This document shows, piece after piece, positions 20,267-36,437 of a stretch of DNA of 39,955 nt. Both the position numbers and the translations under genes were made by a program. Each line of letters begins with the position of its first letter. Within the stretch, counting starts at the first letter, position 1. This stretch comes from Acidobacteriota bacterium (lineage in GTDB: Bacteria > Acidobacteriota > Thermoanaerobaculia > Multivoradales > J023), in NCBI GenBank assembly GCA_029263395.1, contig JAJCXO010000116.1, positions 1 through 39,955 on the forward strand, read 5' to 3'. Under the pieces are notes generated by a model. It made no database searches. It saw only the letters and a program-made list of their open reading frames with translations, and was not told the DNA's origin.

Positions 20267-20329
20267 TGAGACCGCCCGCCACGGTACCAGCGTCGCTTGC
20301 GCCCGGAGTTGGCGGGACGTAGGATCTCA
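20267..20329 (+). promoter_or_regulatory. Structured leader candidate upstream of the propeller pair
   Basis: Nested complementarity: TGAGA (20267-20271) with TCTCA (20325-20329), enclosing CCCGCCA (20275-20281) with TGGCGGG (20310-20316). A second GGCGGG at 20330-20335 could compete for the same CCCGCC, an arrangement that would allow alternative folding. It lies 60 bases before the start at 20390. It does not match a riboswitch class I recognise. The rest of 20029-20389 holds no gene. Confidence 0.35.
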
Positions 20330-20389
20330 GGCGGGTGCACGTCACCCGAATTCCCCAAACAAATTTCAAGTGACGAAAGAGAGCCCAGG

Positions 20390-22630
20390 ATGCGTACGCA
20401 AGCAGTCATGAACGACCTTCGCCTTCGAGCTTTGGCCCTCGCCTTGCTGATGGCCGTAGCGACGATCTCCCCTGCCGGGGCCGAGGAATGGACCCATTGG
20501 CGTGGTCCACACCAGAACGGTGTGTCGCCGGAAACCGACCTGATCTCTTCGTGGTCGGTGGATGGAGAGAATCTGATCTGGAAGGCTGACTTCACCGGCC
20601 GGTCGACGGCGGCGGTGTTCGATGGCCGAGCTTGCGCCATCGGCCGCGACGGTGAAGGCATCCTGCGCCAGGAAGTCATCGTGTGCTGGAACGCCGAAAC
20701 CGGCGCCAAGATGTGGGAATACCGCTCGACGGCACACAACACCTTCGTACCGTGGCAGCGCCTGGGTTGGGCATCGGTGGCCGGTGACGCCGAAACCGGC
20801 TATCTGTTCGCCAACACCTCAGATGGTTTGATGATTGCACTCGACCGCGAGGGTAAGCCAGTGTGGCAATGGCGGATGGCGGAAGATGTCGGGCGCTACT
20901 CGGGTTACGGCGGGCGCACCCACACCCCGATCGTCGACGAAGATCGCGTCATTGTGGCCGCCATCAACACCAGTTGGGGCACTCACGGTGGTCGGCCGAG
21001 CATGCGCTACTGGGCCTTCGACAAACGGACAGGTGATGTGCGTTTCGCTGCTAAACCATCGCCGTTCTCGAAGGATGCGAACACCATGTCGACTCCGGTG
21101 ATTGCAGTGGTCGACGGTGAACGCCTCTTGATTGGCGCCAGCTCGGACGGTTTCGTTTACGCCATCAACGCCCGCACTGGCGAGTCGCGCTGGTCTTTCC
21201 AGCTCAGCCAGATTTCACTCAACGCCGGGGTGGCGGTGGCGGATGGTCGAGTATTTGCGTCACACAGTGAAGAGAATGTCGACACCGGTACCATGGGCCG
21301 GATCGTCGCGATCGATGCCACGGGCAGAGGTGAGGCGGGTGAAGTGTGGCGTATCCCTGACGTCAAGGCCGGCTTCGGTACACCATTGGTCCACAACGGT
21401 CGGGTTTACCAAATGGACAACTCAGCCAACCTGCACGCGATTGACGCAGCAACCGGCGAGATCCATTGGACGCACAACATTGGGACCGTCGGCAAGAGCG
21501 GTCCGGTGTGGGCGGACGGCAAGATTTACGTCACCGAAGTCAATGGCAAGTTTCACATCTTGAAAGATGCGGGGGATCACGCGGAAGTCCTCGACAGCGA
21601 AGAGATCAAGATGTCGGACGGCTCCCGTGCCGCTGAGATCTACGCTTCGCCGGCGATCGCGTACGGCCGGATCTATTTTGCCACCGAAGACGGTTTCTTC
21701 TGCTTGGGTGACAAGTCCAAGCCATTCAAACAAACTCCGAGTGCACCGGTCGACCTGGGCGAAAAGCCTGTAGCTGCCGATGCCAAGCCGGCCGTGATCC
21801 ATGTCGTTCCGGCGGAGGTTGTAACGTTGATCGATGGGCCGATCGACTTCAAGGTCCGAGCGTATGATGCTGCTGGGCACTTCCTTGGCGAAAAGCCAGC
21901 CACTAGCTGGAGCCTGAAGGGCCTGGACGGCAAAGTCACCAACAACGGCAAACTGACCCTCAACGACGTCCACGGCATGCAGGTGGGTTATGTGGTGGCC
22001 AAACTCGGGGATGTCGAAGGCGAAGCACGGGTTCGCGCTGCCGGCTCTCTACCATGGACCGAAGACTTCGAAAGCTTGGAGCCTGGACCAGCTCCCAAGG
22101 GTGGCTTCCCCGCCGGCTGGTTGGGTCGTGGAAAGAAAGCCAACGTCCAAGTCATCGACGGCAACAAAGTGTTGGTACAACCCAACCCCAAAAGCTTCGC
22201 TCCGCGAGCGGTGATGTACACCGGTATCTCGGCGATGAAGGACTACACCATTCAGGCAGACATCTTCGCGACCGCAAAAGGCAAGCGGAAGCCGGAGCTT
22301 GGATTGATCAACAGTGGCTACACGTTTCTCGCCGCCGGCATCCAACAGCGACTCGAGATCCGTTCCTGGGGATCCGAGTTGCGGATGATGAAACGTCAAG
22401 ACTTCGCTTTTGACGTCGAGACCTGGTACACCATGAAGGTGCGTGTCGACCAGGAAGACAACCAAGCCGTGGTCCGTGGCAAGATCTGGAAGCGCGACGA
22501 AGCTGAGCCCGCGGACTGGACGTTCACGGTTACCGATCCCCTACCGATCCGTCAGGGTGCGCCTGGGCTTTACGGTTTTACTCCGGTAGATGGCTACTTC
22601 GACAACGTCAAAATCACCGCTAGCAAATAG
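20390..22630 (+). CDS. Secreted PQQ-like beta-propeller protein with C-terminal lectin-like domain
   Basis: 746 residues from ATG at 20390, chosen because a signal peptide follows (hydrophobic ~14-30, ending GA|EEW); the open frame extends to 20297 but would bury it. Residues ~34-470 form an eight-bladed BamB/quinoprotein-like propeller starting with WTHWRGPHQNGVSPE and repeating AIDAATGEIHW-type blades. Residues ~490-570 look like an Ig-like domain (VIHVVPAEVVTLIDGPIDFKV), and ~570-746 a concanavalin/3-keto-disaccharide-hydrolase-like jelly roll (WTEDFESLEPG, GLYGFTPVDGYFDNVKI). Without the helical dehydrogenase signatures it is more likely a binding protein than a PQQ-dependent dehydrogenase. 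It pairs with the next propeller gene 46 bases downstream. Confidence 0.85.
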   Translation: MRTQAVMNDLRLRALALALLMAVATISPAGAEEWTHWRGPHQNGVSPETDLISSWSVDGENLIWKADFTGRSTAAVFDGRACAIGRDGEGILRQEVIVCWNAETGAKMWEYRSTAHNTFVPWQRLGWASVAGDAETGYLFANTSDGLMIALDREGKPVWQWRMAEDVGRYSGYGGRTHTPIVDEDRVIVAAINTSWGTHGGRPSMRYWAFDKRTGDVRFAAKPSPFSKDANTMSTPVIAVVDGERLLIGASSDGFVYAINARTGESRWSFQLSQISLNAGVAVADGRVFASHSEENVDTGTMGRIVAIDATGRGEAGEVWRIPDVKAGFGTPLVHNGRVYQMDNSANLHAIDAATGEIHWTHNIGTVGKSGPVWADGKIYVTEVNGKFHILKDAGDHAEVLDSEEIKMSDGSRAAEIYASPAIAYGRIYFATEDGFFCLGDKSKPFKQTPSAPVDLGEKPVAADAKPAVIHVVPAEVVTLIDGPIDFKVRAYDAAGHFLGEKPATSWSLKGLDGKVTNNGKLTLNDVHGMQVGYVVAKLGDVEGEARVRAAGSLPWTEDFESLEPGPAPKGGFPAGWLGRGKKANVQVIDGNKVLVQPNPKSFAPRAVMYTGISAMKDYTIQADIFATAKGKRKPELGLINSGYTFLAAGIQQRLEIRSWGSELRMMKRQDFAFDVETWYTMKVRVDQEDNQAVVRGKIWKRDEAEPADWTFTVTDPLPIRQGAPGLYGFTPVDGYFDNVKITASK

Positions 22631-22676
22631 CAGTTCTGGACTGCATAGCGTTCAAGACTAGACAAAGGAACCCGAT

Positions 22677-24179
22677 ATGAAGAAATTTTCAACCCCTGCC
22701 CTGCTCCTGCTGTTGATGGGCCTGGCCGCCACTCTGCCAGTCTTCGCCAGCGACAAGAACGTTGTGATGTTCGGCGATGGCCCCAACCGCAACATGGTCG
22801 ATCGGTCGGCCAAGGGTCTGCCCACTGAGTGGGACATCAAGACCGGTAAGAATGTCAAATGGTCCCAGCCGGTAGGCTCACAGTCCTACGCAGGGCCGGT
22901 GATCTCGGGCGGTAAAGTTTTTGTCGGCACCAACAACGAGGGCCTGCGTGATCCCAAGCTGACCAAGGACCGCGGCGTCATCATGGCTTTCGACGAGAAA
23001 ACCGGGGAGTTCTTGTGGCAGATCACCCACACCAAGCTGCCCGAGTCCAAGCTCCATGATTGGCCGCTACAGGGAGTGTGTTCGACACCGGTAATCGAAG
23101 GCGATCGGCTCTACTACGTATCGAATCGCGCTGAGTTCGTAGCACTCGACACCGAGGGCTTCCGTGACGGTGAGAATGATGGGCCCTACAAGGACGAGAC
23201 CGAGACCGGCGAGTTCGCGGGCGACATCATCTGGAAGTACGACCTGATCGGCGAGCTCGACGTTTTCCCCCACAACTTGGCTGCGGGATCGCCGTTGCTG
23301 GTGGGTGACATTGTCTACGCCTCCACGGGTACTGGCGTCGACGAAGCCCACGTCAACGTACCGGTGCCCTATGCCCCGTCGCTGGTAGCGCTCAACAAGA
23401 AGACCGGCGAACTGGTGTGGGAAGACGCTACACCGGACGAGAACGTCCTGCACGGCACCTGGTCGAACCCGAGCTACGGCAACATCAAAGGTCGTGAGCA
23501 GGTGATCTTCCCCGCTGGAGATGGCTGGGTTTATTCCTTTGAGCCCAAAACCGGCAAGATTCTGTGGAAGTTCGACGCCAATCCCAAAGACTCAGTGTGG
23601 CGCCTCGGTGGTTCTGGTACCCGCAACAACATCATCTCGATGGCAGTGGTCTACGACGACAAAGCCTATGTCGGCGTCGGCCAGGACCCCGAACATGGTG
23701 AAGCGCCGGGTCACTTCTACGCCATTGATGCAACCTTGTCCGGGGACATCACCGACAAGGGCAAAATCTGGACCCGTGACGGCGAGGACTTCAATCGCAC
23801 GATCTCGAGTGCAGCGATCAAAGACGACATCATCTACATCTCGGATCTTTCTGGTTTCCTCTACGCTCTCGACGCGCAGACCGGCAAGCACTACTGGACT
23901 TACGACGTGTTTGCAGCGGTGTGGGGCTCGGCGTTTGTCGCCGACGGCAAGGTCTACATCGGTGACGAAGATGGCGACGTTGCAGTGCTGAAGGAAGGCA
24001 AAGGCAAAAATGGCGAGCCGGAGTTGCTCAGTGAAATGAACCTTGGTGCCGCCGCTTACACCACGCCGGTCGCGAATGGCAAAACCTTGTATGTGCTGGC
24101 CCGCAACCGATTGTTCGCCTTCGAAGAGGGTGCGATGACCAAGCCCGAAGAGAAGAAGGCATCCAAGCCTGGTAAGTAG
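22677..24179 (+). CDS. Secreted PQQ-like beta-propeller protein
   Basis: 500 residues; ATG at 22677 with AAAGGA 8 bases upstream and a classic signal peptide (MKKFSTPALLLLLMG to the VFA|SD cleavage site, about residue 25). The rest is one propeller with blades such as IMAFDEKTGEFLWQI, LVALNKKTGELVWED, SFEPKTGKILWKFD and YALDAQTGKHYWTYD. The C-terminus is short and Lys-rich. It has no membrane helix or cytochrome CxxCH motif. It lies 46 bases after the other propeller gene and is followed by a strong hairpin, so the two probably form one transcript. Similar proteins in Planctomycetes and Acidobacteria are usually annotated only as PQQ-binding-like. Whether PQQ is bound cannot be read from sequence. 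Confidence 0.88.
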   Translation: MKKFSTPALLLLLMGLAATLPVFASDKNVVMFGDGPNRNMVDRSAKGLPTEWDIKTGKNVKWSQPVGSQSYAGPVISGGKVFVGTNNEGLRDPKLTKDRGVIMAFDEKTGEFLWQITHTKLPESKLHDWPLQGVCSTPVIEGDRLYYVSNRAEFVALDTEGFRDGENDGPYKDETETGEFAGDIIWKYDLIGELDVFPHNLAAGSPLLVGDIVYASTGTGVDEAHVNVPVPYAPSLVALNKKTGELVWEDATPDENVLHGTWSNPSYGNIKGREQVIFPAGDGWVYSFEPKTGKILWKFDANPKDSVWRLGGSGTRNNIISMAVVYDDKAYVGVGQDPEHGEAPGHFYAIDATLSGDITDKGKIWTRDGEDFNRTISSAAIKDDIIYISDLSGFLYALDAQTGKHYWTYDVFAAVWGSAFVADGKVYIGDEDGDVAVLKEGKGKNGEPELLSEMNLGAAAYTTPVANGKTLYVLARNRLFAFEEGAMTKPEEKKASKPGK

Positions 24180-24205
24180 ACGAAGACTCGATAGGTAGGC
24201 GCTGA

Positions 24206-24228
24206 CGCGAGGGGGTATCCCCCTCGCG
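24206..24228 (+). terminator. Strong hairpin after the propeller pair
   Basis: CGCGAGGGGG-TAT-CCCCCTCGCG is a perfect 10-bp G/C stem with a 3-base loop, 26 bases after the stop at 24179. No T-run follows. It is probably a terminator or 3' stabiliser separating the propeller pair from the ligase gene. Confidence 0.65.
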
Positions 24229-24267
24229 ATGAGTTTCCGACCTTGCGGGACTGCTCAACCGTCATCC

Positions 24268-24309
24268 CGGTTCAGGTGCCGTTCTTGCCGGTTCAGGCGC
24301 TGTTCTTGG
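24268..24309. repeat. Two 21-bp direct repeats before the ligase gene
   Basis: Unit 24268-24288 is repeated at 24289-24309 with 3 changes (core CGGTTCAGG, then GTTCTTG). It lies 38 bases before the GTG start of the ligase and could be a tandem binding site in its promoter or leader. Confidence 0.55.
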
Positions 24310-24347
24310 ATGGGATCTAGCCTTAGGAAATACGAAGAGGAACCACG

Positions 24348-25430
24348 GTGAACGACACTTCTCTTTCTACTCTTGTCGCCGCGACGCGGGAACGCCTCGA
24401 CGCCCACGTCCGGGATATTGTCGAGTGGCATTTCAATCCCGCCACGGGATGTCCGTTCTGGCTCGAGAAAGCGGCAGAGTTCGACTTTGATCCGCGCGTT
24501 GATGTCAAAGGTTACGACGACCTCAAGCTTTTCGGTCACTTTGAGGATGAATGGCTGCGCGGCGGCCCAGTGCGGCGCTGGGTACCCAAGGGGCTTGCCG
24601 GACAGCCACTCTACGTCTTTGAGACTGGGGGCTCGACCGGCATTCCCAAGAGTCGGATCAACATTCATGACTTCGAGACCGATTACGAAGTTTTTGGGGA
24701 TTCGTTGTCGGACGACACGTTCCCCCCCGGCAGCGATTGGCTGATGCTCGGCCCCACCGGCCCGAGACGACTGCGACTGGCGATCGAACATTTGGCGCAG
24801 CATCGCGACGGAATCTCATTCCATGTTGATCTTGATCCACGCTGGGTCTCGAAACTGGTCAAGAAGTCCCGTTGGGACGAGCTTGATGCCTACAAAGAAC
24901 ATGTCAGCGATCAAGCGCTCAAGATCATCCGAGCGCACGAGATCAGCTGTCTGTTCACCACCCCTAAGCTGCTCGAACATCTCTGTGGCAAGCTGGACAT
25001 CGTCAAAGCGGGCATTACCGGAATCTTCTGTGGTGGCACTGAGATGAACGCTGAGTTCCATCGGTTCGCCCGCGAAGAGCTGGTGCCGGGAGCCGACTTC
25101 ATCCCGGTCTACGGCAATACGTTGATGGGCCTGGCCCGCGGCGGCCCTTTTGATCCGGTTGCCAAGGACTACACCATTACGTATTACCCGCCACTACCTC
25201 GGGCAACCTTCGAGATCGTCGACCCAGACGACCTCGATCAGTCGGTGCCCTATGGCGAGACCGGGCGGGTCCTGCTGACGACTCTGACCAAGGAGTTCTT
25301 CATGCCGCGTTTCGCTGAACGCGACGAAGGCGAGCGTGCTGCGCCGACGGAACTCTATCCGTGGGACGGAGTGAGCAATTTGCGTCTGTTCTCGCGCTTT
25401 GCCAAGTCGGTTGCGGTCGGAGTCTACTGA
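24348..25430 (+). CDS. Adenylate-forming enzyme lacking the C-terminal lid (EhpF/PaaK-like)
   Basis: 360 residues; GTG at 24348 with AGAGG 8 bases upstream. ANL-superfamily motifs are ordered as in phenylacetate-CoA ligases: the P-loop TGGSTGIPKS (93-102), FCGGTEM (227-233), VYGNTLMG (254-261) and GETGRVLLTT (303-312). The protein ends at LRLFSRFAKSVAVGVY, so the ~110-residue C-terminal lid that normally closes for the second half-reaction is missing. EphF-type naming aside, a ~41-kDa lid-less homologue, EhpF of Pantoea griseoluteic-acid (phenazine) synthesis, is the closest precedent I know; it works with EhpG in reducing a ring carboxylate. Here the next plus-strand gene is an aldehyde dehydrogenase-fold reductase. 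Likely role is activation of an aromatic or other carboxylic acid as acyl-AMP; the substrate is unknown. Confidence 0.82.
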   Translation: MNDTSLSTLVAATRERLDAHVRDIVEWHFNPATGCPFWLEKAAEFDFDPRVDVKGYDDLKLFGHFEDEWLRGGPVRRWVPKGLAGQPLYVFETGGSTGIPKSRINIHDFETDYEVFGDSLSDDTFPPGSDWLMLGPTGPRRLRLAIEHLAQHRDGISFHVDLDPRWVSKLVKKSRWDELDAYKEHVSDQALKIIRAHEISCLFTTPKLLEHLCGKLDIVKAGITGIFCGGTEMNAEFHRFAREELVPGADFIPVYGNTLMGLARGGPFDPVAKDYTITYYPPLPRATFEIVDPDDLDQSVPYGETGRVLLTTLTKEFFMPRFAERDEGERAAPTELYPWDGVSNLRLFSRFAKSVAVGVY

Positions 25431-25481
25431 GGAGCTGGCGAAACGCTGAGCGGATCGCCGAAGAATCGAGCGAGTTTTAGT

Positions 25482-25527
25482 CGAGCCCGGAACACCGACT
25501 TCTACTCGAAGTCGATCTCCGGGCTCG
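25482..25527. terminator. Shared bidirectional terminator hairpin
   Basis: The outer stem CGAGCCCGGA (25482-25491) / TCCGGGCTCG (25518-25527) is perfect over 10 bp; the inner stem CGACTTC (25496-25502) / GAAGTCG (25508-25514) is perfect over 7 bp with loop TACTC. It lies between the ligase stop (25430, plus) and the tiny-gene stop (25537, minus), as expected of a terminator serving two convergent transcripts. T-runs are absent on both sides. Confidence 0.7.
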
Positions 25528-25536
25528 TTGACTCGC

Positions 25537-25602
25537 TTATGTGAGCGGTCCTCCGGAATCACCATTGTTGGCACCGGAACGGACCTGAGTTTGAATCTTC
25601 AT
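25537..25602 (-). CDS. 21-residue peptide gene, unknown; possible modified-peptide precursor
   Basis: ATG at 25602 to TAA at 25537. The peptide begins MKIQTQVRSG, continues ANN and ends GDSGGPLT; it has no Cys, Trp or Tyr and is Gly/Ser/Asn-rich at the C-terminus. AGAAGGAG (plus-strand 25610-25617) is a near-perfect Shine-Dalgarno 7 bases before the ATG; the in-frame upstream ATG is too close to use it. The stop is 10 bases from a strong hairpin. Its neighbours are an adenylating enzyme (convergent) and an operon with a radical SAM enzyme (divergent). The GDSGGP string matches the serine-protease active-site consensus, but in 21 residues that is coincidence. A ribosomally made, modified peptide (RiPP) precursor, a leader peptide or a signalling peptide are all possible. 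No function is assigned. Confidence 0.6.
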   Translation of the reverse strand: MKIQTQVRSGANNGDSGGPLT

Positions 25603-25664
25603 GAGCATGCTCCTTCTGTCGCAGGTTGCTAAATCGTCGACTCAGCCCTCGTCGGTGGTCGACA

Positions 25665-25727
25665 CAGTAGGCGCTTCGAAACAGTAGATGCTTCAAAACA
25701 GCAGATGCTTCAGTTATTTGCTGAAGC
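25665..25727. repeat. Three 17-bp direct repeats plus a hairpin in the divergent control region
   Basis: Units 25665-25681, 25682-25698 and 25699-25715 share CAGYAGRYGCTTCRAAA-type sequence (for example CAGTAGATGCTTCAAAA). The last unit runs into a perfect inverted repeat GCTTCAG (25707-25713)-7 bases-CTGAAGC (25721-25727). They lie 63 bases upstream of the tiny minus-strand gene and 220 bases upstream of the aldehyde dehydrogenase gene, an AT-richer zone suited to shared regulation. The rest of 25603-25945 shows no gene I can support. Confidence 0.7.
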
Positions 25728-25945
25728 TAAAACTAGGTTACAAAGAATCATACGGAATTGGCAATGATGGTGTTTGCGTTTTTGCGTAAAGATAGTGGTC
25801 TTTGCAGGAATGCACTGACAAGCAGTTGCGAATGTTCCTCTTTTCTGAACCCAATGTAGGCATGATCTGATAGACCAGGAAGCAGATCACGCTGACGGTT
25901 GATCGACTGAACACGACCCGCGTTCAAGACGACGGAGGTTTCGAG

Positions 25946-27370
25946 ATGATCCACATACCTGTTCTTCGCGCCGGCAAGGCGTATCGCAGTCTGCAAGTCG
26001 AGACATTGACCGATGTGCGTGACGGCTCCCCCGTCGCCGAGGTGAGTCAGGCTCTACCTGGAATCATCGCCCGGGATTTACGGGATGTTGCGGCGTTACA
26101 ACACAGTCTCGAAGAGCGCACCACGGGTGAGTTGATCGAGATCTGTCAACGGGCAGCGAAGATCTTCGCTGAAGACGAGTTGCCCCTTGGCGACAGCCTG
26201 CAGTCGCCTGAAGATTACCTGCGTTGCCTGGCCGCGACGACCGGTATGCCGATCGTCATGGGCCGCGCCAATATGGGCAAAATCACCGGTATGTTGAGCG
26301 GTATCCAAGAAGTGCTCGACGGCCTGACTCGCGGTCTCGACTTGGCAGTGCTCGATGGCGGTTTCGGCAGCCAGCACGGCCGCCGCCTCTCCTATCTCCG
26401 CCAAACAGACGCTTTGGGCGCAGTGTTACCCAACAACTCTCCTGGCGTTCACAACTTGTGGATTCCAGCAATTCCGCTCAAGGTACCGCTGGTGCTCAAG
26501 CCCGGCAGCGCCGAGCCCTGGACGCCGTACCGGATCGCCCAGGCATTGATCGCGGCCGGCTGCCCGCCGCAAGCTTTCAGCCTCTACCCCGCTAGCCATG
26601 CGGGTGCCTCCGAGCTCTTGTTGCGCACCGGACGTTCGTTGTTCTTCGGTGATGCGTCGACGGTCGCGAGTTGGAAGGGGCAAGGCAAAGTCCAAGTCCA
26701 TGGGCCGGGTTGGTCGAAAGTGCTGTTGGGAGCTGATGCCGCCGCTGACTGGCAGCAACACATCGAGCTGATGGCGACGTCGGTGGCCGCCAACGGTGGT
26801 CGTTCTTGCATCAACGCGTCTGGCGTGTGGACAGCCGCCAAGGGTCGTCAGATTGCTGAAGGGCTGGCTGCCGAGCTCGGTAAGGTGACCGCCCGCCCGC
26901 TGGACGATCCCGACGCACAACTCGCTGCGTTCGCTGATCCATCGATTGCCGAGCGAGTGTCAGAGATGATCGACCAGCAACTCGATATCGATGGTGCCGA
27001 GGATCTCACTGCGCCCTATCATCCCGATGGCCGTGTGGCGCGGGTCGGAGGCTGTACCTTCTTGTTGCCGACCGTGGTTTACTGCGAAGACGCCAATCAT
27101 CCGCTGGCCTCGGCGGAGTTCATGTTTCCCTTTGTGTCGGTGGTCGAAGCGCCGCAAGAGGAGATACTCGGCAGCATCGGCGAAACCTTGATTGGTTCGA
27201 TCCTTTCAGAGGACGCGACGTTCCGTGCCCAGGCGCTGGCCAGCCGATCGATCGACCGGCTCAATCTAGGCCCGATCCCAACCTACAAGATCTCCTGGGA
27301 TCAGCCACACGAGGGAAATCTCTTTGATCACCTTTACCAGCAGCGGGCATTCCAAGCCATCGCGTCGTAG
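25946..27370 (+). CDS. Aldehyde dehydrogenase-fold acyl reductase (LuxC/EhpG-like)
   Basis: 474 residues; ATG at 25946 with GGAGG (25934-25938) 7 bases upstream. The fold is NAD(P)-dependent aldehyde dehydrogenase: a nucleotide-binding segment LPNNSPGVHNLWIPAIPLKV (161-180), VVLKPGSAE-type loop (PLVLKPGSAEPWTPY, 181-195), and the catalytic Cys288 in AANGGRSCINASG. The usual general-base Glu motif is not obvious, as in LuxC-type acyl reductases that run the reaction backwards (activated acyl to aldehyde). Standing between a lid-less adenylating enzyme and an iron-type alcohol dehydrogenase, it probably takes the activated acyl group and reduces it to the aldehyde. Oxidation of an aldehyde to acid is the alternative. 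The divergent tiny gene shares its upstream region. Confidence 0.82.
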   Translation: MIHIPVLRAGKAYRSLQVETLTDVRDGSPVAEVSQALPGIIARDLRDVAALQHSLEERTTGELIEICQRAAKIFAEDELPLGDSLQSPEDYLRCLAATTGMPIVMGRANMGKITGMLSGIQEVLDGLTRGLDLAVLDGGFGSQHGRRLSYLRQTDALGAVLPNNSPGVHNLWIPAIPLKVPLVLKPGSAEPWTPYRIAQALIAAGCPPQAFSLYPASHAGASELLLRTGRSLFFGDASTVASWKGQGKVQVHGPGWSKVLLGADAAADWQQHIELMATSVAANGGRSCINASGVWTAAKGRQIAEGLAAELGKVTARPLDDPDAQLAAFADPSIAERVSEMIDQQLDIDGAEDLTAPYHPDGRVARVGGCTFLLPTVVYCEDANHPLASAEFMFPFVSVVEAPQEEILGSIGETLIGSILSEDATFRAQALASRSIDRLNLGPIPTYKISWDQPHEGNLFDHLYQQRAFQAIAS

Positions 27371-27379
27371 CGTCTCGTC

Positions 27380-27414
27380 GTGAGGTAAAGGTCTGGTAAA
27401 CCTTCCCGCCTCAC
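27380..27414 (+). terminator. Hairpin after the aldehyde dehydrogenase gene
   Basis: The outer stem GTGAGG (27380-27385) / CCTCAC (27409-27414) encloses AAGGT (27388-27392) / ACCTT (27400-27404). It lies 9 bases after the stop and has no T-run. It may attenuate rather than end transcription, because the alcohol dehydrogenase gene follows in the same direction at 27526. Confidence 0.45.
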
Positions 27415-27525
27415 TACAACTGTGCCCCTAGAGATAGCGTAGAAAACAACGCCGGGGCCTGTGCTCAGCTTGTGATTTGTGTACCTGGATTAACCCCCGC
27501 AGTAACCTCCGGAGAACGCCCTAAC

Positions 27526-28698
27526 GTGAGCCACGCCTCCCCTTTCGTCAATGACGGTTCTTGGTCTGCTGATGTCGGTGGTATTCAAGTTGTCTTCGGC
27601 GAAGGCACATTGGAGCGTCTCGGCGGACTGGCGGTCGAGCTTGCTGGTAAGCGAGCGTTGGTGGTCACTGATCCGGGACTCGAGCGCGCCGGGCATGCCA
27701 GGCGTGCTGTCGACTCTTTGAGAGCGTCTGGCGTTGACGCCCACGTCTTCGATGGTGTCGCCGAAAACCCGACCGATCAGCAGGTTCAAGCCGGTACTGA
27801 GGTTGCCCACGAGGTCCAGCCGGATCTGTTGATCGGCCTCGGCGGCGGCAGCTCGATGGATTGCGCCAAAGGCATCAACTTTCTGTACTCGAATGGTGGC
27901 CAGATGGCCGATTATTGGGGGGAAGGCAAGGCGAAGCAGCCGATGTTGCCGTCGATCGGAATCCCCACCACCACTGGCACCGGTAGCGAAGGCCAACGGT
28001 ACGCGCTGATCTCCAACGCCGAGACCCATCAGAAGATGGCGTGTGGCGACAAGAAGGCCCGTTTTCGTGCAGTGATACTCGATCCCGAGTTGGTTACCAG
28101 CATGCCGCACGAGGTGGCGGCAGTAACCGGCATGGACGCTCTCTCCCATGCCCTCGAAAGCTACGTGACCCGTCGCCGCAACCCGATCTCACAACTGTTT
28201 GCTCGCGAAGCCTGGCGTTTGATCGAAACGAGCTTCGAACGGTTTCTCGCCGATACAAGCGACTCGGAAGCTCGGGCGCAGATGCTCCTCGGCGCACACC
28301 TAGGAGGTGCTGCGATCGAGGCTTCGATGTTGGGTGCGGCCCATTCCTGCGCCAACCCGTTGACCGCTCACTACGGCATCACTCACGGCGCCGCGGTTGG
28401 ACTGATGCTCCCCCACGTGATCCGCTTCAATGACTCCGTCGTGTCCGAACTTTACGGTGACTTGGCCCGCACAGCGGCACTCAACGGCAACGGCGCCTCA
28501 CCCACCACCCGTGTCTGCACCCGGGTGGCCGAGTTGCGGCGAGCAGCCAGGTTGCCTGAACAGCTCCATGAGTGCGGTGTCGAGGCAGCCTTCCTCGAGA
28601 CCCTAGCCGAAGAAGCAGCCCAACAGTGGACCGCCCAATTCAATCCGCGAGAGGTCGTCAAGCGCGACCTGCAACGACTGTACGAAGAGGCTTATTAG
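27526..28698 (+). CDS. Iron-type (group III) alcohol dehydrogenase
   Basis: 390 residues from GTG at 27526 (GGAG at 27511-27514); the longer frame from 27472 adds a non-homologous N-terminus. NAD(P)-dependent, metal-containing alcohol/aldehyde oxidoreductase in the cytosol. Visible are the nucleotide-binding loop GLGGGSSMDCAKG (104-116), PTTTGTGSEG (147-156), and the four metal ligands Asp204 and His208 (GMDALSHALESY), His273 (GAAHSCA) and His287 (GITHGAAVG), with the 14-residue His-His spacing of the family. The usual AHxxG motif reads NPLTAHYG, still with a His. Following the acyl reductase, it would convert the aldehyde to an alcohol. It is followed after 6 bases by a propeller gene. Confidence 0.92.
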   Translation: MSHASPFVNDGSWSADVGGIQVVFGEGTLERLGGLAVELAGKRALVVTDPGLERAGHARRAVDSLRASGVDAHVFDGVAENPTDQQVQAGTEVAHEVQPDLLIGLGGGSSMDCAKGINFLYSNGGQMADYWGEGKAKQPMLPSIGIPTTTGTGSEGQRYALISNAETHQKMACGDKKARFRAVILDPELVTSMPHEVAAVTGMDALSHALESYVTRRRNPISQLFAREAWRLIETSFERFLADTSDSEARAQMLLGAHLGGAAIEASMLGAAHSCANPLTAHYGITHGAAVGLMLPHVIRFNDSVVSELYGDLARTAALNGNGASPTTRVCTRVAELRRAARLPEQLHECGVEAAFLETLAEEAAQQWTAQFNPREVVKRDLQRLYEEAY

Positions 28699-28704
28699 TC
28701 GATC

Positions 28705-29841
28705 ATGAGACAGAGATCTAACCAAGGATCAAGTGTTGTCGCTGGTCTACTGCTTGCCACGCTGCTTGCCGCCAGTCCCCGGGTAGCCGTTGCTGCCGAG
28801 GGCTGGACACAATTTCGCGGTGGCGGTGAACAGCGAGGTGTCGCCACCAGCGTGTTGCCAGAAGATCTAAAACCGGTTTGGATCTTCGAGATTGCCGATG
28901 GCGTCGAGGCAACTGCTGCCATCGCCGACGGGTTGGTGTATATCGCGGGCCTCGACGGCGTGCTTTACGCACTTGGATTCGACGACGGCAAATTGCGCTG
29001 GAAGTACGAGGGTGGCGAAGAGATCAAGTCGTCGCCGTTGGTGGCAGACGGCGGAGTCTACTTCGGCGATGAGTACGGCAAGTTCCACGCCGTCGACGCC
29101 GCCACCGGCAAGGGCCGGTGGATCATCGAGACGGACGCTGCCATCAGTGGGTCCGCTAACCTTGTCGGCGACCGTATCGTCTTCGGCTCCTATGACAACT
29201 CACTCTACAGTGTGTCCCCGAAGGATGGCAGCAAGATCTGGTCTGTCGAAACCCAGGGTTATGTCCATGGCGCGCCAGCGATTGCTGGCGGGCGAGTGAT
29301 CTCCAGTGGCTGTGACGGTTTCTTACGATTCCTCGACGTCGACACTGGAGAAACCCTGGAAAGTGTCGAACTCGGTAGCTACGTTGCTGCCAGTGCCGCG
29401 GTCCTCGACGGCCGAGTATTCGTCGGCACATTTGATGGCCAGGTCCTGGCGGTAGATATGGCAGAGGCCAAGCTGGCTTGGGAGTACAAACCGCAGGATC
29501 GCGAGTTTCCGTTTTACGCCTCCGCAGCGGTGACGGCAGACCGGGTGATTGCAGCTGGACGAGACAAACGGGTCCATGCTCTCGACCCGAAGACCGGCAA
29601 AGAACTCTGGAAGCTCGCCCTGCCGGCCCGTATCGATGCGTCTCCAGTAATTTCCGGTGACCGGGTCTTCATTGCCGACAAAGCCGGGCAATTGCTGTCA
29701 TTGGCCCTTGAAGACGGCAAGGAGCGTTGGCGCTTTGAAACCGGTGACGCGTTTTCGGCTTCGCCGGCAATCGCGAACGGCAGACTGGTGATCAGCACAG
29801 AAGGTGGCACCGTTTACAGCTTTGCAGGAGCAGCCCAATGA
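28705..29841 (+). CDS. Secreted BamB/PQQ-like beta-propeller protein
   Basis: 378 residues. Signal peptide ~1-30 (hydrophobic core VVAGLLLATLLAA, cleavage near AVA|AEGW). The remainder is a compact eight-bladed propeller with very regular blades, such as LYALGFDDGKLRWKYEG, HAVDAATGKGRWIIET, HALDPKTGKELWKLAL and LSLALEDGKERWRFET. It is the smallest of the five propellers and closest in size to BamB, but lacks the BamB lipoprotein Cys. The ATG at 28705 follows the alcohol dehydrogenase stop by 6 bases. Its own stop overlaps the radical SAM gene start (ATGA), tying a periplasmic protein to a cytosolic enzyme in one translation unit. Confidence 0.88.
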   Translation: MRQRSNQGSSVVAGLLLATLLAASPRVAVAAEGWTQFRGGGEQRGVATSVLPEDLKPVWIFEIADGVEATAAIADGLVYIAGLDGVLYALGFDDGKLRWKYEGGEEIKSSPLVADGGVYFGDEYGKFHAVDAATGKGRWIIETDAAISGSANLVGDRIVFGSYDNSLYSVSPKDGSKIWSVETQGYVHGAPAIAGGRVISSGCDGFLRFLDVDTGETLESVELGSYVAASAAVLDGRVFVGTFDGQVLAVDMAEAKLAWEYKPQDREFPFYASAAVTADRVIAAGRDKRVHALDPKTGKELWKLALPARIDASPVISGDRVFIADKAGQLLSLALEDGKERWRFETGDAFSASPAIANGRLVISTEGGTVYSFAGAAQ

Positions 29842-31196
29842 GTACCGAAACAGGTCTCGAGACCCCAGCAGCTAACGACGATCAAATAACTGAGAAGAAG
29901 ACGGAAGTCGGTAGTGTCTTCGTCTCCAACTACCCGCCCTTCTCGTTCTGGCAGAAGGATTCCCTCAGCGAGGCACAACAAGCGCTGGCCTCGCCAGCCG
30001 CCGAGGAAACGCCTCTGGGTCTCTACCTGCACATCCCGTTCTGTCGCAAACGCTGCAAATTTTGCTACTTCCGGGTCTACGTCGACAAGAACGCAGACCA
30101 GATCCAGGCCTACCTCGATGCCTTGGGCCGTGAAGTCGAGCTCTACAGCCAACAGCCGGCCGTCGCCAAGCGACCACTGAAATTTGTCTACTTTGGTGGC
30201 GGCACTCCGTCGTACGTCGCAGTCAAACACCTTCACGGCTTGATCGACCGGATCAAGGCAGCGATGCCGTGGGACAACGTCGAAGAGGTGACGTTCGAAT
30301 GCGAACCCGGCACCTTGACCCAATCGAAGGTTGCGGCCTACCGCGAGATCGGAGTCACTCGCCTGTCGTTGGGTATCGAGAACTGGAACGACGAAATCCT
30401 CAAAGAAAACGGCCGTGCTCACCTCACCGGTGAGATCCACCGCTGCCTGCCATGGATCCGGGCGCAAGGATTCGATCAGCTCAATGTCGACTTGATCGCC
30501 GGTATGGTTGGTGAGAGTTGGGACACCTGGCGTGATTCGGTGCAGAAGACCATCGACATCGATCCAGACAGTGTCACCATCTACCAAATGGAGTTGCCGT
30601 ACAACACCGTCTATTCACAAGGCATTCTCGGTGGTAATGAGTCGCCGGTGGCAGATTGGGAAACCAAACGGGCTTGGAATCAGTATGCGATCGAAGAGCT
30701 GCAGGGAGCCGGTTACGATGTGTCGAGCGCCTATACGATGCTCAAACGTGCCAGTGGCTCCTCAAAACCTCGCTTCGCCTATCGCGATTCGCTTTGGCAC
30801 GGCGCCGATATGCTCGGTACCGGCATCGCGTCGTTTGGCCATCTCAGCGGCTTCCACCTGCAGAATGTTGCGTCATGGAACGACTATCTAGAGCGGATTG
30901 CAGAGGATCAACTACCTCTCGGTCGTGCGTTTAAAACTAACGACAGTGAACGGTTGACCCGCGAATTGATTCTGCAGATGAAGCTCGGCCGACTCGACCT
31001 CGGTTACTTCAGGCGTAAGTTCGACATCGATCCGCTGGAAGCCTGGAAAGACACTTTTCAGGGTTTGGTCGAGCGCGAGATGCTCGAGATTTCGAACGCC
31101 GATGAAGTGCTGCTGACCACCCGCGGCCTGTTGCAGGTTGATGCGCTATTACCCGAGTTTTACGATCCCAAATACAGCAATGCTCGCTACACCTGA
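29838..31196 (+). CDS. HemW/HemN-type radical SAM enzyme
   Basis: 452 residues; ATG overlaps the preceding stop, with AGGAG 8 bases upstream. Radical SAM cluster motif LYLHIPFCRKRCKFCYF has Cys69, Cys73 and Cys76; GGGTPS (120-125) binds SAM. The C-terminal half keeps the HemW pattern (DMLGTGIASFGHLSG, NDYLERI, then a winged-helix-like tail with LTTRGLLQVDALL). Members range from heme chaperone HemW to natural-product C-methyltransferases (two-SAM, HemN-like) and the anaerobic heme-opening ChuW/HutW, which is of similar length and also sits by TonB-dependent receptors. After the first 60 residues, which are an unusual Asp/Glu/Pro-rich extension, it follows the family well. In this locus a tailoring methyltransfer or heme-opening role is likelier than housekeeping HemW. 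Confidence 0.85.
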   Translation: MSTETGLETPAANDDQITEKKTEVGSVFVSNYPPFSFWQKDSLSEAQQALASPAAEETPLGLYLHIPFCRKRCKFCYFRVYVDKNADQIQAYLDALGREVELYSQQPAVAKRPLKFVYFGGGTPSYVAVKHLHGLIDRIKAAMPWDNVEEVTFECEPGTLTQSKVAAYREIGVTRLSLGIENWNDEILKENGRAHLTGEIHRCLPWIRAQGFDQLNVDLIAGMVGESWDTWRDSVQKTIDIDPDSVTIYQMELPYNTVYSQGILGGNESPVADWETKRAWNQYAIEELQGAGYDVSSAYTMLKRASGSSKPRFAYRDSLWHGADMLGTGIASFGHLSGFHLQNVASWNDYLERIAEDQLPLGRAFKTNDSERLTRELILQMKLGRLDLGYFRRKFDIDPLEAWKDTFQGLVEREMLEISNADEVLLTTRGLLQVDALLPEFYDPKYSNARYT

Positions 31197-31221
31197 GCCT
31201 GCGCTCTCCCGGAGGTTCCAG

Positions 31222-32475
31222 ATGCTGAATCGCCCTCGTTTGTCGGCCCCTGCAATGGCCGTTGTTTTTTTCGCCACGGTCTTCTTCATCGGCACCGTCA
31301 CTGTCTCGGCTGAGCCTGAACCGGTCGATTGGCCAGGCTTTCGAGGCCCCAATGGCGATGGACGATCGGCCGAAACCGGTTTGCTGAAAGAATGGCCCGA
31401 TAGTGGTCCCAAACAGCTCTGGAAGGTGCCGATCGGCGGCGGCTTCTCTGGGCTCACCGCGGTTGACGGTCGCCTTTTTACACTTTACAGCCAAAGCGGT
31501 CGCGAACTGGTCGCGAGTTTCGACACTGCAACCGGTAAAGAGCTGTGGAGCCACGATCTCGACGAGGAACGTCGCGATCGTTTCGGCAACGGCCCAAGAT
31601 CAACACCCTTGGTCCACGACGGCTTGGTTTACGCGGTCAGTGCCCTCGGTCAGCTTGCGGCGTTGAAGGCGTCAACGGGTGAGGTGGTCTGGCACCATGA
31701 TTTGCCTCGAGCCTTTGGTGCTCGCGTCCCTGAATGGGGAGTCTCCGCGGCCCCGATCGTCGAAGGTGAGCTGTTGCTGTTCAACGTCGGTGGCAAACCT
31801 GGCCACGCTGTGATGGCGTTTGATCGCAAAACTGGCAAGGTCGCTTGGAAAGCTGAGACCGATATCCCGGGTTACGCCCTGCCGATTACCTTAACGGTTG
31901 GTGGCGTGCGACAAACGGTCTTCTTCACCGGCTCGAACGTCATTGCCGTGGACCCGGCAACCGGTACGTCGCTCTGGAAGCGCCCTTGGAAGACGGCTTA
32001 TGACGTCAATGCCGCAACACCGATCTTCATCGCCCCCGACAAGCTCTTCGTCTCGTCGGGCTACGACACCGGGGCGACGCTGTTCAAGTTGTCGACCAAG
32101 CAAGGCAAAGTCGACGTTGCGGAAGTTTGGAAAACCCGCGGCATGAAGAACCAGTTCAGCTCGTCGATTTACCACGATGGTTACATTTATGGCTTCGACA
32201 ACAAGAACCTGAAGTGTATTGATGCTGCGACCGGCGAGGACACCTGGCGCAAGGGAGGCCTCGGTCACGGTTCTCTGCTCTACGCAGATGGGCACTTGGT
32301 GATTCTGAGTGAGAGCGGCCAACTAGTGCTGGCGGAAGCTCATCCCAAAGCCTACCGTGAAAAGGCGAGCTTTCAGGTTGCCGATGCAAAACATTGGACT
32401 GTGCCGACGTTGTACGACGGCAAGCTCTACGTGCGTAACGAACAAGACCTCGTCTGTCTCGATCTCAAATCCTGA
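31222..32475 (+). CDS. Secreted PQQ-like beta-propeller protein
   Basis: 417 residues from ATG at 31222 (GGAGG at 31211-31215, 6 bases upstream); the frame is open from 31138 but that would overlap the radical SAM gene and bury the signal peptide. Signal peptide/anchor ~12-34 (MAVVFFATVFFIGTV, ending VSA|EPE). It then opens with DWPGFRGPNGDGRSAETGL, a signature shared with the propellers at 15416 and 20390 (W-x-x-x-x-GP-x-x-x-G). Blades follow such as FDTATGKELWSHDLD, MAFDRKTGKVAWKAE and KCIDAATGEDTWRKG. It is the fifth propeller in 17 kb. A periplasmic binding or assembly role for the neighbouring TonB-dependent receptor is plausible but unproved. Confidence 0.88.
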   Translation: MLNRPRLSAPAMAVVFFATVFFIGTVTVSAEPEPVDWPGFRGPNGDGRSAETGLLKEWPDSGPKQLWKVPIGGGFSGLTAVDGRLFTLYSQSGRELVASFDTATGKELWSHDLDEERRDRFGNGPRSTPLVHDGLVYAVSALGQLAALKASTGEVVWHHDLPRAFGARVPEWGVSAAPIVEGELLLFNVGGKPGHAVMAFDRKTGKVAWKAETDIPGYALPITLTVGGVRQTVFFTGSNVIAVDPATGTSLWKRPWKTAYDVNAATPIFIAPDKLFVSSGYDTGATLFKLSTKQGKVDVAEVWKTRGMKNQFSSSIYHDGYIYGFDNKNLKCIDAATGEDTWRKGGLGHGSLLYADGHLVILSESGQLVLAEAHPKAYREKASFQVADAKHWTVPTLYDGKLYVRNEQDLVCLDLKS

Positions 32476-32564
32476 GGGGTGTTGCCGGGTCTTGATGGAC
32501 CGTCAGGTCTAATCCCAAGGCGCCCCTTCGTCTCCACGACCATTTCATTCGGAGCCCGAACTAT

Positions 32565-34706
32565 ATGTCCGATCGCTGGATAGCCAACGTTTCGTTGGCC
32601 AGTATTCTCTTGGTGTCTGTAGTCTTGTTCACTGTTGCACAGCCAGCTTCCGCATCTCCACCGGAGAGCAATGAGCCGGCTTCCACTTCCAGCTCCGATG
32701 AGAGCGATCCTCAGCTTACGATCGAAGACGAGCTGTTGGTGGAAGATACTGCCCCTTACCTCCCCGATACGCAAAGCACCGCGACCAAAACGTCGACGCC
32801 GCTGCGGCTCCTGCCCGCCAGCGTGTCGGCTCTCTCTCATGCGTTGTTACGCGATCGCAACGCGCTGGTGCTCGGCGATGCCCTCACCAACGTTCCCGGC
32901 GTCAACGCGCAGTCGAACTCGGGGGTCCACGATCTGTTTTTTCTGCGGGGTTTCGAGTCGTTGTCCTCGAGTCTGGTGATGGTGGACGGTGCCCCCGAGC
33001 CCGAAGCAACCTTTTATCAGCTCTACAACGTTGAACGGGTCGAGGTAGTGCGGGGTCCAGCCGGCTTCCTCTACGGCGGCAACCCGCTAGCCGGCGCGGT
33101 CAACATGGTCCGCAAGCGGCCGGTTGGTGGTTTGGAAGGTCGCCTCAGCATCCTCGGTGGCTCCCACTCCACCACCCAGACCACCCTCGACTTCAACTAT
33201 GGCCGCCCGGACGGTCACGCTGGGTTTCGACTCAACGGGCTCTGGCAGTCTTCCGACGGTTATCGCGACGACAAAGCGAGTACGGTGGCTGCCGCCAACC
33301 CGGTCTTTACGTTCCTGGCCGGCGACAACACCGCCGTCACCGTCAGCGCTGGCGTGTTGCGCAGTGACTTCGAGCCTGACGCCGGTATTCCGTTGTTGTT
33401 CGGAGCCGTTCCGGATGTCCCTCGGGAAAGGTCTTATCAAACACCTTTCGATTTCTCGGATCAGGATTTGATGCGATTCCGGGTCGATATCGAATCACGG
33501 TTGAACTCGCGCCTGACGTTGCGTAACAAGACGTATTACACGGTGCTCGATTGGGACTCGAAGGGCACTCTGATCAACGGTGCTTTCCCCAACCGTCAAG
33601 GCGGCACCGACGTCTTCCGCACCCGCACAGTGCTCGACGATCGCCAGGAGTTCCTGGGTAATCAGCTCGATCTGCTGTTTTCCTGGGAGACCGGCTCGGT
33701 GACCCACAACTTCGTCACCGGCTTCGAGCTAGTACAACAAACCGACGACCTGCGGCTCGACGTTGGGTTTCTTCCTTCGATCGATTTGTTTGCTCCGGTG
33801 GAAACTGCCCCCGAAACCGATTTCCTGATCCCCGCGTTCGGCATTACCGCCGACGCCACAACCACCATCGTTGCGCCTTACATTTTGGATGAGATCAACA
33901 TCTCAGACCGTTGGCGGATTTTCCTTGGTGGCCGGTTTGACTCGATCGACTTCGAAGACGACGCCAGCGGTACCAGCTCGAGTGACAGTCAGCTGAGCCC
34001 TTTTGTGGGGGCGTTATTCTCCCCCACCGCCTCGGTGTCCCTGTATGCCAACTACTCGGAAGCCTTCTCGCCGCAATCGAGCACCGTTTCCGGCAGTGGC
34101 CGGGAACCCGAGGAAGGCTCGCAGATCGAGGTTGGTGTCAAAACCGAACATCTGGACGGCAAACTGCGCGCCGCTTTGGCCTTCTACCATCTCGAGAAGG
34201 ACAAGATTGCCATTGTGGACGCAACCGGCGTCACGGCACAAATCGGCGACCAGGAATCTGAGGGTTTCGAGTTGGAAATTGCCTCGAGCCCGAGGGAACG
34301 TCTGCATTGGACCTTCACTTATGCCTACACCGATGCCGAACTGACGCGGTTCACCGAGTTGGATCCGTTCTTCTTCACCATCGTCGACTTCAGCGGCAAC
34401 ACACCGGCCTACGCTCCGGAACATCTGGCCAGCTTGTGGCTAAGTCAACGCTTCCAGAGTGGCTTCGGCATCTCTGGTGGCGTACGCTACGTCAGCGAGC
34501 AGTTCATCGACGAAGACAACACCTTCGAAATTGATGCTTACACTACCCTCGACGCTCTGTTCTCCTACGAGCAGCCACGGTGGGGCGCTCGGATCCATTT
34601 GCGCAACTTGACCGACGAAGACTATGCCGGTCGCGGTTTCGGCAGTGTCTCCATCTTGCCGGCTGATGGCTTCAATATTATGGGAGGTTTTCACCTCAAC
34701 CTGTGA
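32565..34706 (+). CDS. TonB-dependent siderophore-type outer-membrane receptor
   Basis: 713 residues; ATG at 32565 with GGAG 10 bases upstream. Signal peptide ~1-30, a Ser/Glu/Asp-rich mature N-terminus, plug domain about 75-185 (NVPGVNAQSNSGVHDLFFLRGF, VMVDGAPEPEATFYQLYNVERVEVVRGPAGFLYGGNPLAGAVNMVRKRP) and a 22-strand barrel to the C-terminus (EIGVKTE-type strand, YTTLDALFSYE, LRNLTDEDYAGRGFG, ending GGFHLNL). The plug is of the ferric-siderophore class, so the natural ligand could be a metal chelate, heme or the locus product itself. No ExbB/ExbD/TonB is in the window. It separates the reductive/radical SAM genes from the FAD enzyme and transporters, all on the same strand. Confidence 0.92.
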   Translation: MSDRWIANVSLASILLVSVVLFTVAQPASASPPESNEPASTSSSDESDPQLTIEDELLVEDTAPYLPDTQSTATKTSTPLRLLPASVSALSHALLRDRNALVLGDALTNVPGVNAQSNSGVHDLFFLRGFESLSSSLVMVDGAPEPEATFYQLYNVERVEVVRGPAGFLYGGNPLAGAVNMVRKRPVGGLEGRLSILGGSHSTTQTTLDFNYGRPDGHAGFRLNGLWQSSDGYRDDKASTVAAANPVFTFLAGDNTAVTVSAGVLRSDFEPDAGIPLLFGAVPDVPRERSYQTPFDFSDQDLMRFRVDIESRLNSRLTLRNKTYYTVLDWDSKGTLINGAFPNRQGGTDVFRTRTVLDDRQEFLGNQLDLLFSWETGSVTHNFVTGFELVQQTDDLRLDVGFLPSIDLFAPVETAPETDFLIPAFGITADATTTIVAPYILDEINISDRWRIFLGGRFDSIDFEDDASGTSSSDSQLSPFVGALFSPTASVSLYANYSEAFSPQSSTVSGSGREPEEGSQIEVGVKTEHLDGKLRAALAFYHLEKDKIAIVDATGVTAQIGDQESEGFELEIASSPRERLHWTFTYAYTDAELTRFTELDPFFFTIVDFSGNTPAYAPEHLASLWLSQRFQSGFGISGGVRYVSEQFIDEDNTFEIDAYTTLDALFSYEQPRWGARIHLRNLTDEDYAGRGFGSVSILPADGFNIMGGFHLNL

Positions 34707-34709
34707 TCA

Positions 34710-34789
34710 CAGTCTCCGGTGATTGCGGTCTCCCGTGATTACAGTCTCCGGTGATTACGGTCTCCGGTGATTGCAGTCTCCGGTGATTA
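34710..34789. repeat. Five 16-bp tandem repeats between receptor and FAD enzyme genes
   Basis: Units CAGTCTCCGGTGATTG (34710-34725), then four near-copies through 34789, differing at 1-2 positions (CRGTCTCCSGTGATTR). They begin at a 12-bp palindrome CTGTGATCACAG (34701-34712) that overlaps the receptor stop codon. The array is 65 bases before the start of the FAD enzyme. It contains no good ribosome-binding site and could hold repeated regulator-binding sites, or be a slippage minisatellite. Confidence 0.85.
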
Positions 34790-34854
34790 CAGCCTGGGAC
34801 ATCCAGGACCGGAGAAAGGGCGAAGACCAGGAAAACCACCCGGGAGTGACGACG

Positions 34855-36198: not shown

Positions 36199-36437
36199 GC
36201 GGCGGCGGCCTGCGGAGCGTCCTCTATCTAGTGCTGGTGGCGTTTTTCGTCCTGCACAACGATCTTTGGTTGTGGAACAACGGCCAGTTGTTGCTCGGCT
36301 TTCCCATTGGGCTGACGTATCACGCCCTATTCTGTCTGGCGACTGCAATCTTGATGGCGCTGCTGGTGCGGTATGCCTGGCCGTCCCATTTGAGTGAAGA
36401 CGACGGCGAAGCGCAAACCGCAGGTGATCGATCATGA
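36195..36437 (+). CDS. DUF3311 small membrane subunit
   Basis: 80 residues, two membrane helices (about 8-24 and 34-60). Short DUF3311 proteins of this type accompany sodium:solute symporters. GTG at 36195 has an excellent ribosome-binding site (AGAAGGAG, 36183-36190). Both ends overlap neighbours by 4 bases: the FAD enzyme stop and the symporter start. Probably an accessory or stabilising subunit of the symporter. Confidence 0.85.
   Translation: MSGGGLRSVLYLVLVAFFVLHNDLWLWNNGQLLLGFPIGLTYHALFCLATAILMALLVRYAWPSHLSEDDGEAQTAGDRS

Follow-up and report, generated by a model that had tools for sequence, protein, structure and literature searches.

The intergenic region and its 21-codon gene

The window, i.e., the whole 39,955 nt stretch of DNA that was analysed, includes an uncharacterised cluster (positions 20297-39261) that is conserved in several genera of the order, and encodes PQQ-like propellers, an AMP-ligase, an acyl reductase, an Fe-ADH, a HemN-like radical SAM protein, a FAD enzyme and a glycosyltransferase. 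The ligase and aldehyde dehydrogenase genes are separated by a gap of 515 bases, and on its minus strand, convergent with the ligase gene, lies a 21-codon ORF (Table 1). Gene callers usually pass over ORFs of this size (15-35 codons). The positions of the ORF and its ribosome-binding site, the length of the gap and the strong hairpin 10 bases from the stop codon were all found on re-reading to be as described in the first-pass annotation. Counting every ATG, nested ones included, the two strands of the window together contain 366 ORFs of 15-60 codons, and AAGGAG or AGGAGG is found in range of two: the tiny ORF and an internal ATG of the ligase frame. There is an alternative in-frame ATG two codons upstream (25608), but it is absent from G001, the same-genus genome that served as the single close relative of the window's own genome (G000), and relatives start at the position corresponding to 25602. 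A search of all six reading frames of the window gave a single match to the ten-residue leader motif.

Table 1. Features of the tiny gene and its flanks, in window coordinates.
Feature	Position	Strand	Basis
21-codon gene, stop included, MKIQTQVRSGANNGDSGGPLT	25537..25602	-	Reading frame; G001 ortholog; third-position bias 9/12
Conserved leader MKIQTQVRSG, ten residues	25573..25602	-	Family start MKxx[TS]x[VIL][KRQ][AS]G
Predicted mature peptide ANNGDSGGPLT (putative Ser-Gly cleavage)	25540..25572	-	Family-wide conservation ends here; GDSGGP subfamily
Shine-Dalgarno AGAAGGAG, 7 bases 5' of ATG	25610..25617	-	Conserved in G001
Hairpin between convergent ends of the tiny gene and the ligase gene	25482..25527		No T-run; G001 hairpin of other sequence
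Upstream block containing GTCGACGATTTAGC, conserved in part with G001; may be regulatory	25618..25667	-	G001 comparison

The hairpin has a predicted folding energy of -35.5 kcal/mol (z -6.95), and in G001 a hairpin of different sequence is found at the same place. It had been read as terminating the ligase gene as well, a role that is at most putative, since a consensus scan of positions 25400-25950 gave no intrinsic terminator (hairpin plus T-run). No sigma-70-like promoter was found by consensus scan of the same interval, and an Rfam search returned nothing. Upstream of the ORF, at 25665-25712, a unit of about 17 bases (GAAGCATCTACTGTTTC type) is repeated in degenerate form, and these repeats are largely absent from G001.

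Coding constraint

G001 carries an ortholog, MKIQSQIRSGAHNGDSGGPLT, at the same place, with 18 of 21 residues identical to the window peptide. The two ORFs differ at 12 bases, nine of which are at third codon positions (p = 0.004), and seven of the ten changed codons are synonymous. In two more presumed ortholog pairs, five of eight changes are at third positions (p = 0.09 each), and pooling the three pairs gives 19 of 28 (p = 2e-4). Since the ORF is retained in G001 with these identities and this third-position bias, it is coding; codon constraint between close relatives had been suggested as a check of the ORF, and was found.

The small size of the ORF, its strong ribosome-binding site and the hairpin 10 bases past its stop would fit a regulatory leader peptide or attenuator, in which translation rather than the product matters. 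However, what lies downstream is the convergent ligase gene, no plausible large same-strand gene was seen there, the amino-acid sequence of the tail is conserved, with base changes that are synonymous, and paralogs (see below) have different neighbours, all of which make this role very unlikely.

The neighbouring enzyme locus

The gene for a HemN/HutW-like radical SAM protein lies 4.2 kb from the tiny ORF, and cofactors like PQQ have precursors of comparable length, so that a RiPP precursor modified by this enzyme could be envisaged. The gene content of relatives argues otherwise. Five genomes (G002, G004, G006, G010 and G016) carry a radical SAM gene beside the same dehydrogenase cluster, with the reductase gene followed by those for Fe-ADH, propeller, radical SAM, FAD enzyme and glycosyltransferase, and none has an ORF with the leader motif within the 18 kb fetched around the cluster. 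In G043, ligase, reductase and Fe-ADH genes are followed by 5.2 kb that lacks a radical SAM match, and this stretch is likewise devoid of a motif ORF. In the 18 loci fetched from other genera, ligase and reductase are separated by only -1 to 66 bases wherever a ligase match exists (16 loci; L003 and L014 have no such match), and the gap of 432-515 bases that holds the tiny ORF was seen in G000 and G001 only. Relatives of the peptide are found beside unrelated genes, and track a C39 exporter (see later). A partnership with the ligase, reductase or radical SAM enzyme was rejected on the gene order of relatives; the tiny ORF is not part of the enzyme locus, and its modification by the radical SAM enzyme is very improbable indeed. 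Of the earlier proposal, the part that stands is the precursor-like gene, which is real and constrained and has a conserved start and a variable tail, while the link to the radical SAM locus fails.

A family of tiny genes with a common start and varied tails

A search with the 21-residue peptide led to 14 places, nine of them in long open frames. Besides these there were short ORFs, namely MKVQTKVRAGNGDSGGPMTGG (G001), MKVQTMVQAGDGDSGGPMTGG (G000) and an ORF of G006 ending NGDSGGPLN, and the resulting GDSGGP subfamily comprises five loci in three genomes. From the start that they have in common, the pattern MKxx[TS]x[VIL][KRQ][AS]G was derived. A start of MKxxTxVRxG type with a variable tail had been anticipated in the first-pass annotation, and the family found, MKxx[T/S]x[V/I/L][K/R]AG, comes close to it.

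The GDSGGP motif raises the alternative that the ORF arose by chance or is what remains of a decayed gene for a trypsin-like protease, and the window peptide has a Pfam Trypsin match at E = 0.014, which is below the cut-off. Set against this are the coding constraint, the ORF's own ribosome-binding site, start and stop, its ortholog, the same-start paralogs with other tails, and the absence of a PDB sequence match at E <= 1, so that this explanation deserves almost no weight. A trypsin-fragment origin was rejected after the peptide search, in which the one long frame that was read (L034) encodes a protease-like protein. Family S1 is defined by a whole protease domain, and the window peptide has 21 residues and the sub-cut-off Pfam match.

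Seven motif ORFs were found by the pattern in G000 and eight in G001, scattered over contigs, while in other genomes they are often in tandem. The tails in G000 are diverse, and include VRIHIIGLG, AMPHMIHQG, AVDGVVITDM, PLVHTGSDGGNQG and IVGGSEATPNEYPWQG. Across the 72 genomes of the order, the pattern combined with a ribosome-binding site was matched 30 times, at 29 sites in 12 genomes, compared to one match with the reversed pattern. A stricter form of the pattern, applied to genome_contigs (84,980 species), retrieved 33 stretches from 26 distinct genomes, and a short ORF with a ribosome-binding site could be read in 32 of them. One locus (L123) has 13 motif ORFs within 8 kb, in two groups of eight and five; 10 of the 13 are among the short ORFs read from the 33 stretches. 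The record titles of the carriers name Acidobacteria, Terriglobia, Minicystis rosea (a myxobacterium), Chloroflexaceae, Anaerolineae, and Delta- and Gammaproteobacteria; nearly all of these records are MAGs, and single cases may therefore be binning errors.

Outside the order the leader pattern is not specific. A scan of the phylum produced 29 matches, against seven with the reversed pattern, in 22 of 396 genomes, and credible tiny ORFs preceded by a ribosome-binding site were retained for six (G000, G006, G010, G012, G133 and G194). The matches in the other 16 genomes were dropped: six come from proteins of about 330 residues that begin MKLVTFLQAG (one of these proteins runs off the end of the locus), and the remaining ten are false or doubtful, G336 and G173 being among the doubtful. 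Also judged to be chance matches were MKPATGMKSG in six genomes, those at L063, L069 and L081, and MRSASGLQSG in G046. Profile-HMM matches above E = 0.01 were set aside. One of the models was trained largely on copies that it went on to retrieve. Among the 92 reads collected, conservation at the pattern positions is by construction.

None of the tiny ORFs tested has an accepted Pfam or NCBIfam family, the matches being weak and below cut-off. No description of the family was found among the open-licence PubMed Central papers that could be searched, where the letters of the motif were matched only as VKAGG, under unrelated titles. These tiny peptides, with a ten-residue start and divergent tails, apparently form a large and undescribed family.

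A three-gene exporter accompanies the tiny genes

The exporter consists of an HlyD adaptor, an ABC transporter with an N-terminal C39 cysteine peptidase, and a second ABC transporter. In G000 it is encoded at about 17.3-23.4 kb of contig G000:C4, a different contig from that of the window ORF, and its C39 and HlyD domains score above the Pfam cut-offs. The catalytic Gln, Cys, His and Asp residues of the C39 domain are invariant in all six exporters aligned.

Within the order the exporter is present in 16 of 72 genomes, including 11 of the 12 that match the pattern (Fisher 1.6e-8); the twelfth is G046, with its chance-like match. Conversely, 13 of the 16 exporter genomes have a tiny ORF, when pattern matches without the ribosome-binding site condition and exporter neighbourhoods are also counted. 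In the phylum sample, all six genomes with a credible tiny ORF preceded by a ribosome-binding site are among the 11 exporter carriers. Exporters with no tiny ORF detected occur in G022, G029 and G031 of the order and in G076, G222 and G316 of the phylum sample.

The association extends to the named genomes selected by the pattern, 25 of 26 of which were tested (L141 was omitted, since G026 was known beforehand). The exporter was found in 22 of these 25, with best E values no higher than 1.3e-84, compared with 11 of 396 in the phylum sample (Fisher 1.5e-25). In this comparison the background comes from a single phylum, genomes that are related do not count as independent cases (L128 and L152 are closely related), and search depth is unequal, at two candidates per genome in the phylum sample and up to 38 in the pattern-selected genomes. 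Thresholds were 1e-60 and 1e-40, respectively, and all 22 pattern-selected matches are below 1e-80. Removing five genomes in which the exporter was known to adjoin the ORF leaves 17 of 20 (Fisher 3.3e-20). The exporter was not found in G446, G459 and G465, and in one of these (locus L140) no short ORF could be read.

Clustering of the ORFs around 58 loci (57 fetched, plus a 15-kb piece of the window) gave TPR/kinase proteins, which are common in these genomes, most often, at 17 loci, followed by C39/ABC transporters at nine and HlyD proteins at eight (one doubtful). A tiny ORF lies beside the exporter at 11 loci, comprising five of the 33 stretches (L128, L131, L133, L145 and L152), five of the 16 exporter loci of the order (G060, G020, G012, G015 and G034) and G194. 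At nine of the 11 it is upstream of the HlyD gene on the same strand; the arrangement in G194 is similar but with a distance of 1.3 kb, and in G015 the ORF is convergent, behind the last gene. No tiny ORF was detected within the 16-18 kb fetched around the exporters of G000, G001 and G006. In G034 the tail QSTTGILE is encoded beside the exporter and again, in two copies, on another contig, which supports service in trans.

Ser/Thr kinase signatures were seen near C39 exporters seven times in 303 kb (six of 25 loci: L177, L243, L244, L245, L246 and L152) and once in 330 kb of control sequence (one of 69 loci), with taxa unmatched between the two sets.

Comparison with known peptide export systems

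Precursors of the NHLP and Nif11-derived (N11P) types resemble the tiny family in having a conserved leader, a variable tail, paralogous expansion and a tie to a three-gene exporter, and in PMC2887384 NHLP precursors are connected to an HlyD / C39-ABC / ABC exporter by phylogenetic argument. A similar argument applies to the tiny genes: the leader is conserved up to the presumed cut, what comes after it is variable, and from genome to genome the exporter goes with the leader. The leaders, however, are about 70-90 residues in NHLP/N11P precursors and ten in the tiny family, and neither the window peptide, its ortholog nor ten relatives gave an NCBIfam or Pfam match (E <= 10) to a nitrile hydratase- or Nif11-like leader domain. 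The NHLM export cassette has the same trio of genes as G000, but the G000 proteins score well under its cut-offs: 52 of 156 bits for HlyD (TIGR03794), 202 of 853 for C39-ABC (TIGR03796) and 84 of 709 for the second ABC protein (TIGR03797). Judged by its sequence, the tiny peptide is not of the NHLP or N11P type, and would function like such systems while lacking the features that define them.

The double-glycine leaders of PCAT exporters (ComC, class II bacteriocins, lanthipeptides) share with the tiny family a Gly at -1, a hydrophobic residue at -4 and a genomic C39-ABC gene; the tiny-family leader differs in having Ser or Ala at -2, no hydrophobic residue at -7 and no position -12. According to PMC10885120, GG, GA or GS precedes the cut, whereas the window peptide has SG, and the 92 reads have AG (88) or SG (4), the only two forms the pattern permits. 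Among the hydrophobic positions -4, -7 and -12, the first is present (and required by the pattern), the second is polar in 91 of 92 reads, and the third does not exist. The leader remnants tested with LahT150, as given in PMC10885120 and PMC6363468, were 13-14 residues, so that at ten residues the tiny-family leader is shorter than these, and appears to be shorter than the C39-type leaders found described. It breaks most of the known C39 rules. The C39 peptidase of G000, which has the catalytic residues, would be its partner.

The scheme of one exporter and many precursors is also that of LahT-type clusters, which, according to PMC10885120, combine one exporter with several precursors that have one leader and diverse cores. 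In contrast, the copies of the tiny family are scattered over the genome, and no linked synthetase was recognised in the window. The family does have the conserved leader and variable core of RiPP precursors, and its members might, before being cut by C39 and exported, be modified by an unlinked enzyme, e.g., a lanthipeptide synthetase. LanM-type enzymes are encoded at L106:584-4234, about 3 kb from the short ORF of that locus, and at L126:3-2921, where a pair of short ORFs lies about 0.5 kb away; 15 of 20 relatives, G000 included, have LANC-like proteins, and 17 of 92 tails contain Cys. On the other hand, LanM, at two of 58 loci, was the sole modification enzyme recognised among the 25 neighbour clusters examined, and none was recognised next to either the window ORF or the exporter of G000 (a minority of neighbours was scanned against Pfam). 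Cys is absent from 75 of 92 tails and from that of the window, and 23 of 92 have neither Ser nor Thr. Modification of this kind is possible but rather unlikely.

Proposed function

The preferred reading, with a probability of roughly three in four, takes the window ORF to be a precursor gene for a short secreted peptide, with a leader that is recognised in trans by the C39 exporter and a tail that is exported. MKIQTQVRSG would be an export leader common to tiny genes scattered in G000 and many other genomes, recognised by the three-gene exporter encoded elsewhere in the genome; the C39 domain would cut behind Ala/Ser-Gly, in the window peptide after Ser-Gly, and the tail ANNGDSGGPLT would then leave the cell. 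That most carrier genomes encode a peptide-cutting export pump suggests that tails are cut off and secreted. As to a role outside the cell, the number and divergence of the copies favour a signal over a toxin, although this is a guess.

On balance, the tiny genes seem to represent an undescribed class of secreted micro-peptides, distributed over several phyla, with a ten-residue leader and one exporter serving many scattered genes, giving a varied repertoire outside the cell. As gene callers usually skip genes of this length, soil and sediment bacteria may have an entire secreted-peptide system that has escaped listing. With the leader motif and the exporter it can be searched for, its mature peptides can be predicted, and there is a cleavage site to test in members that are in culture, such as Minicystis rosea. 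The system also raises the question of how a C39 peptidase could recognise a leader of ten residues.

Some tails copy elements of serine proteases (an IVGG start, GDSGGP), hinting at protease-directed roles. In a G000 paralog (L098:2019-2099, contig G000:C189), the tail IVGGSEATPNEYPWQG resembles the mature N-terminus of a trypsin-like protease, the best PDB match being a tryptase at a non-significant E of 0.09; cleavage after AG would release an IVGG end there, while the window tail has GDSGGP. In other cases (L135:1066-1334, L154:67-171 and L137:2048-2164) the tail echoes the leader itself (e.g., LKVRTSVK, LRVQTSLKAG), which suggests a duplicated strand-like element.
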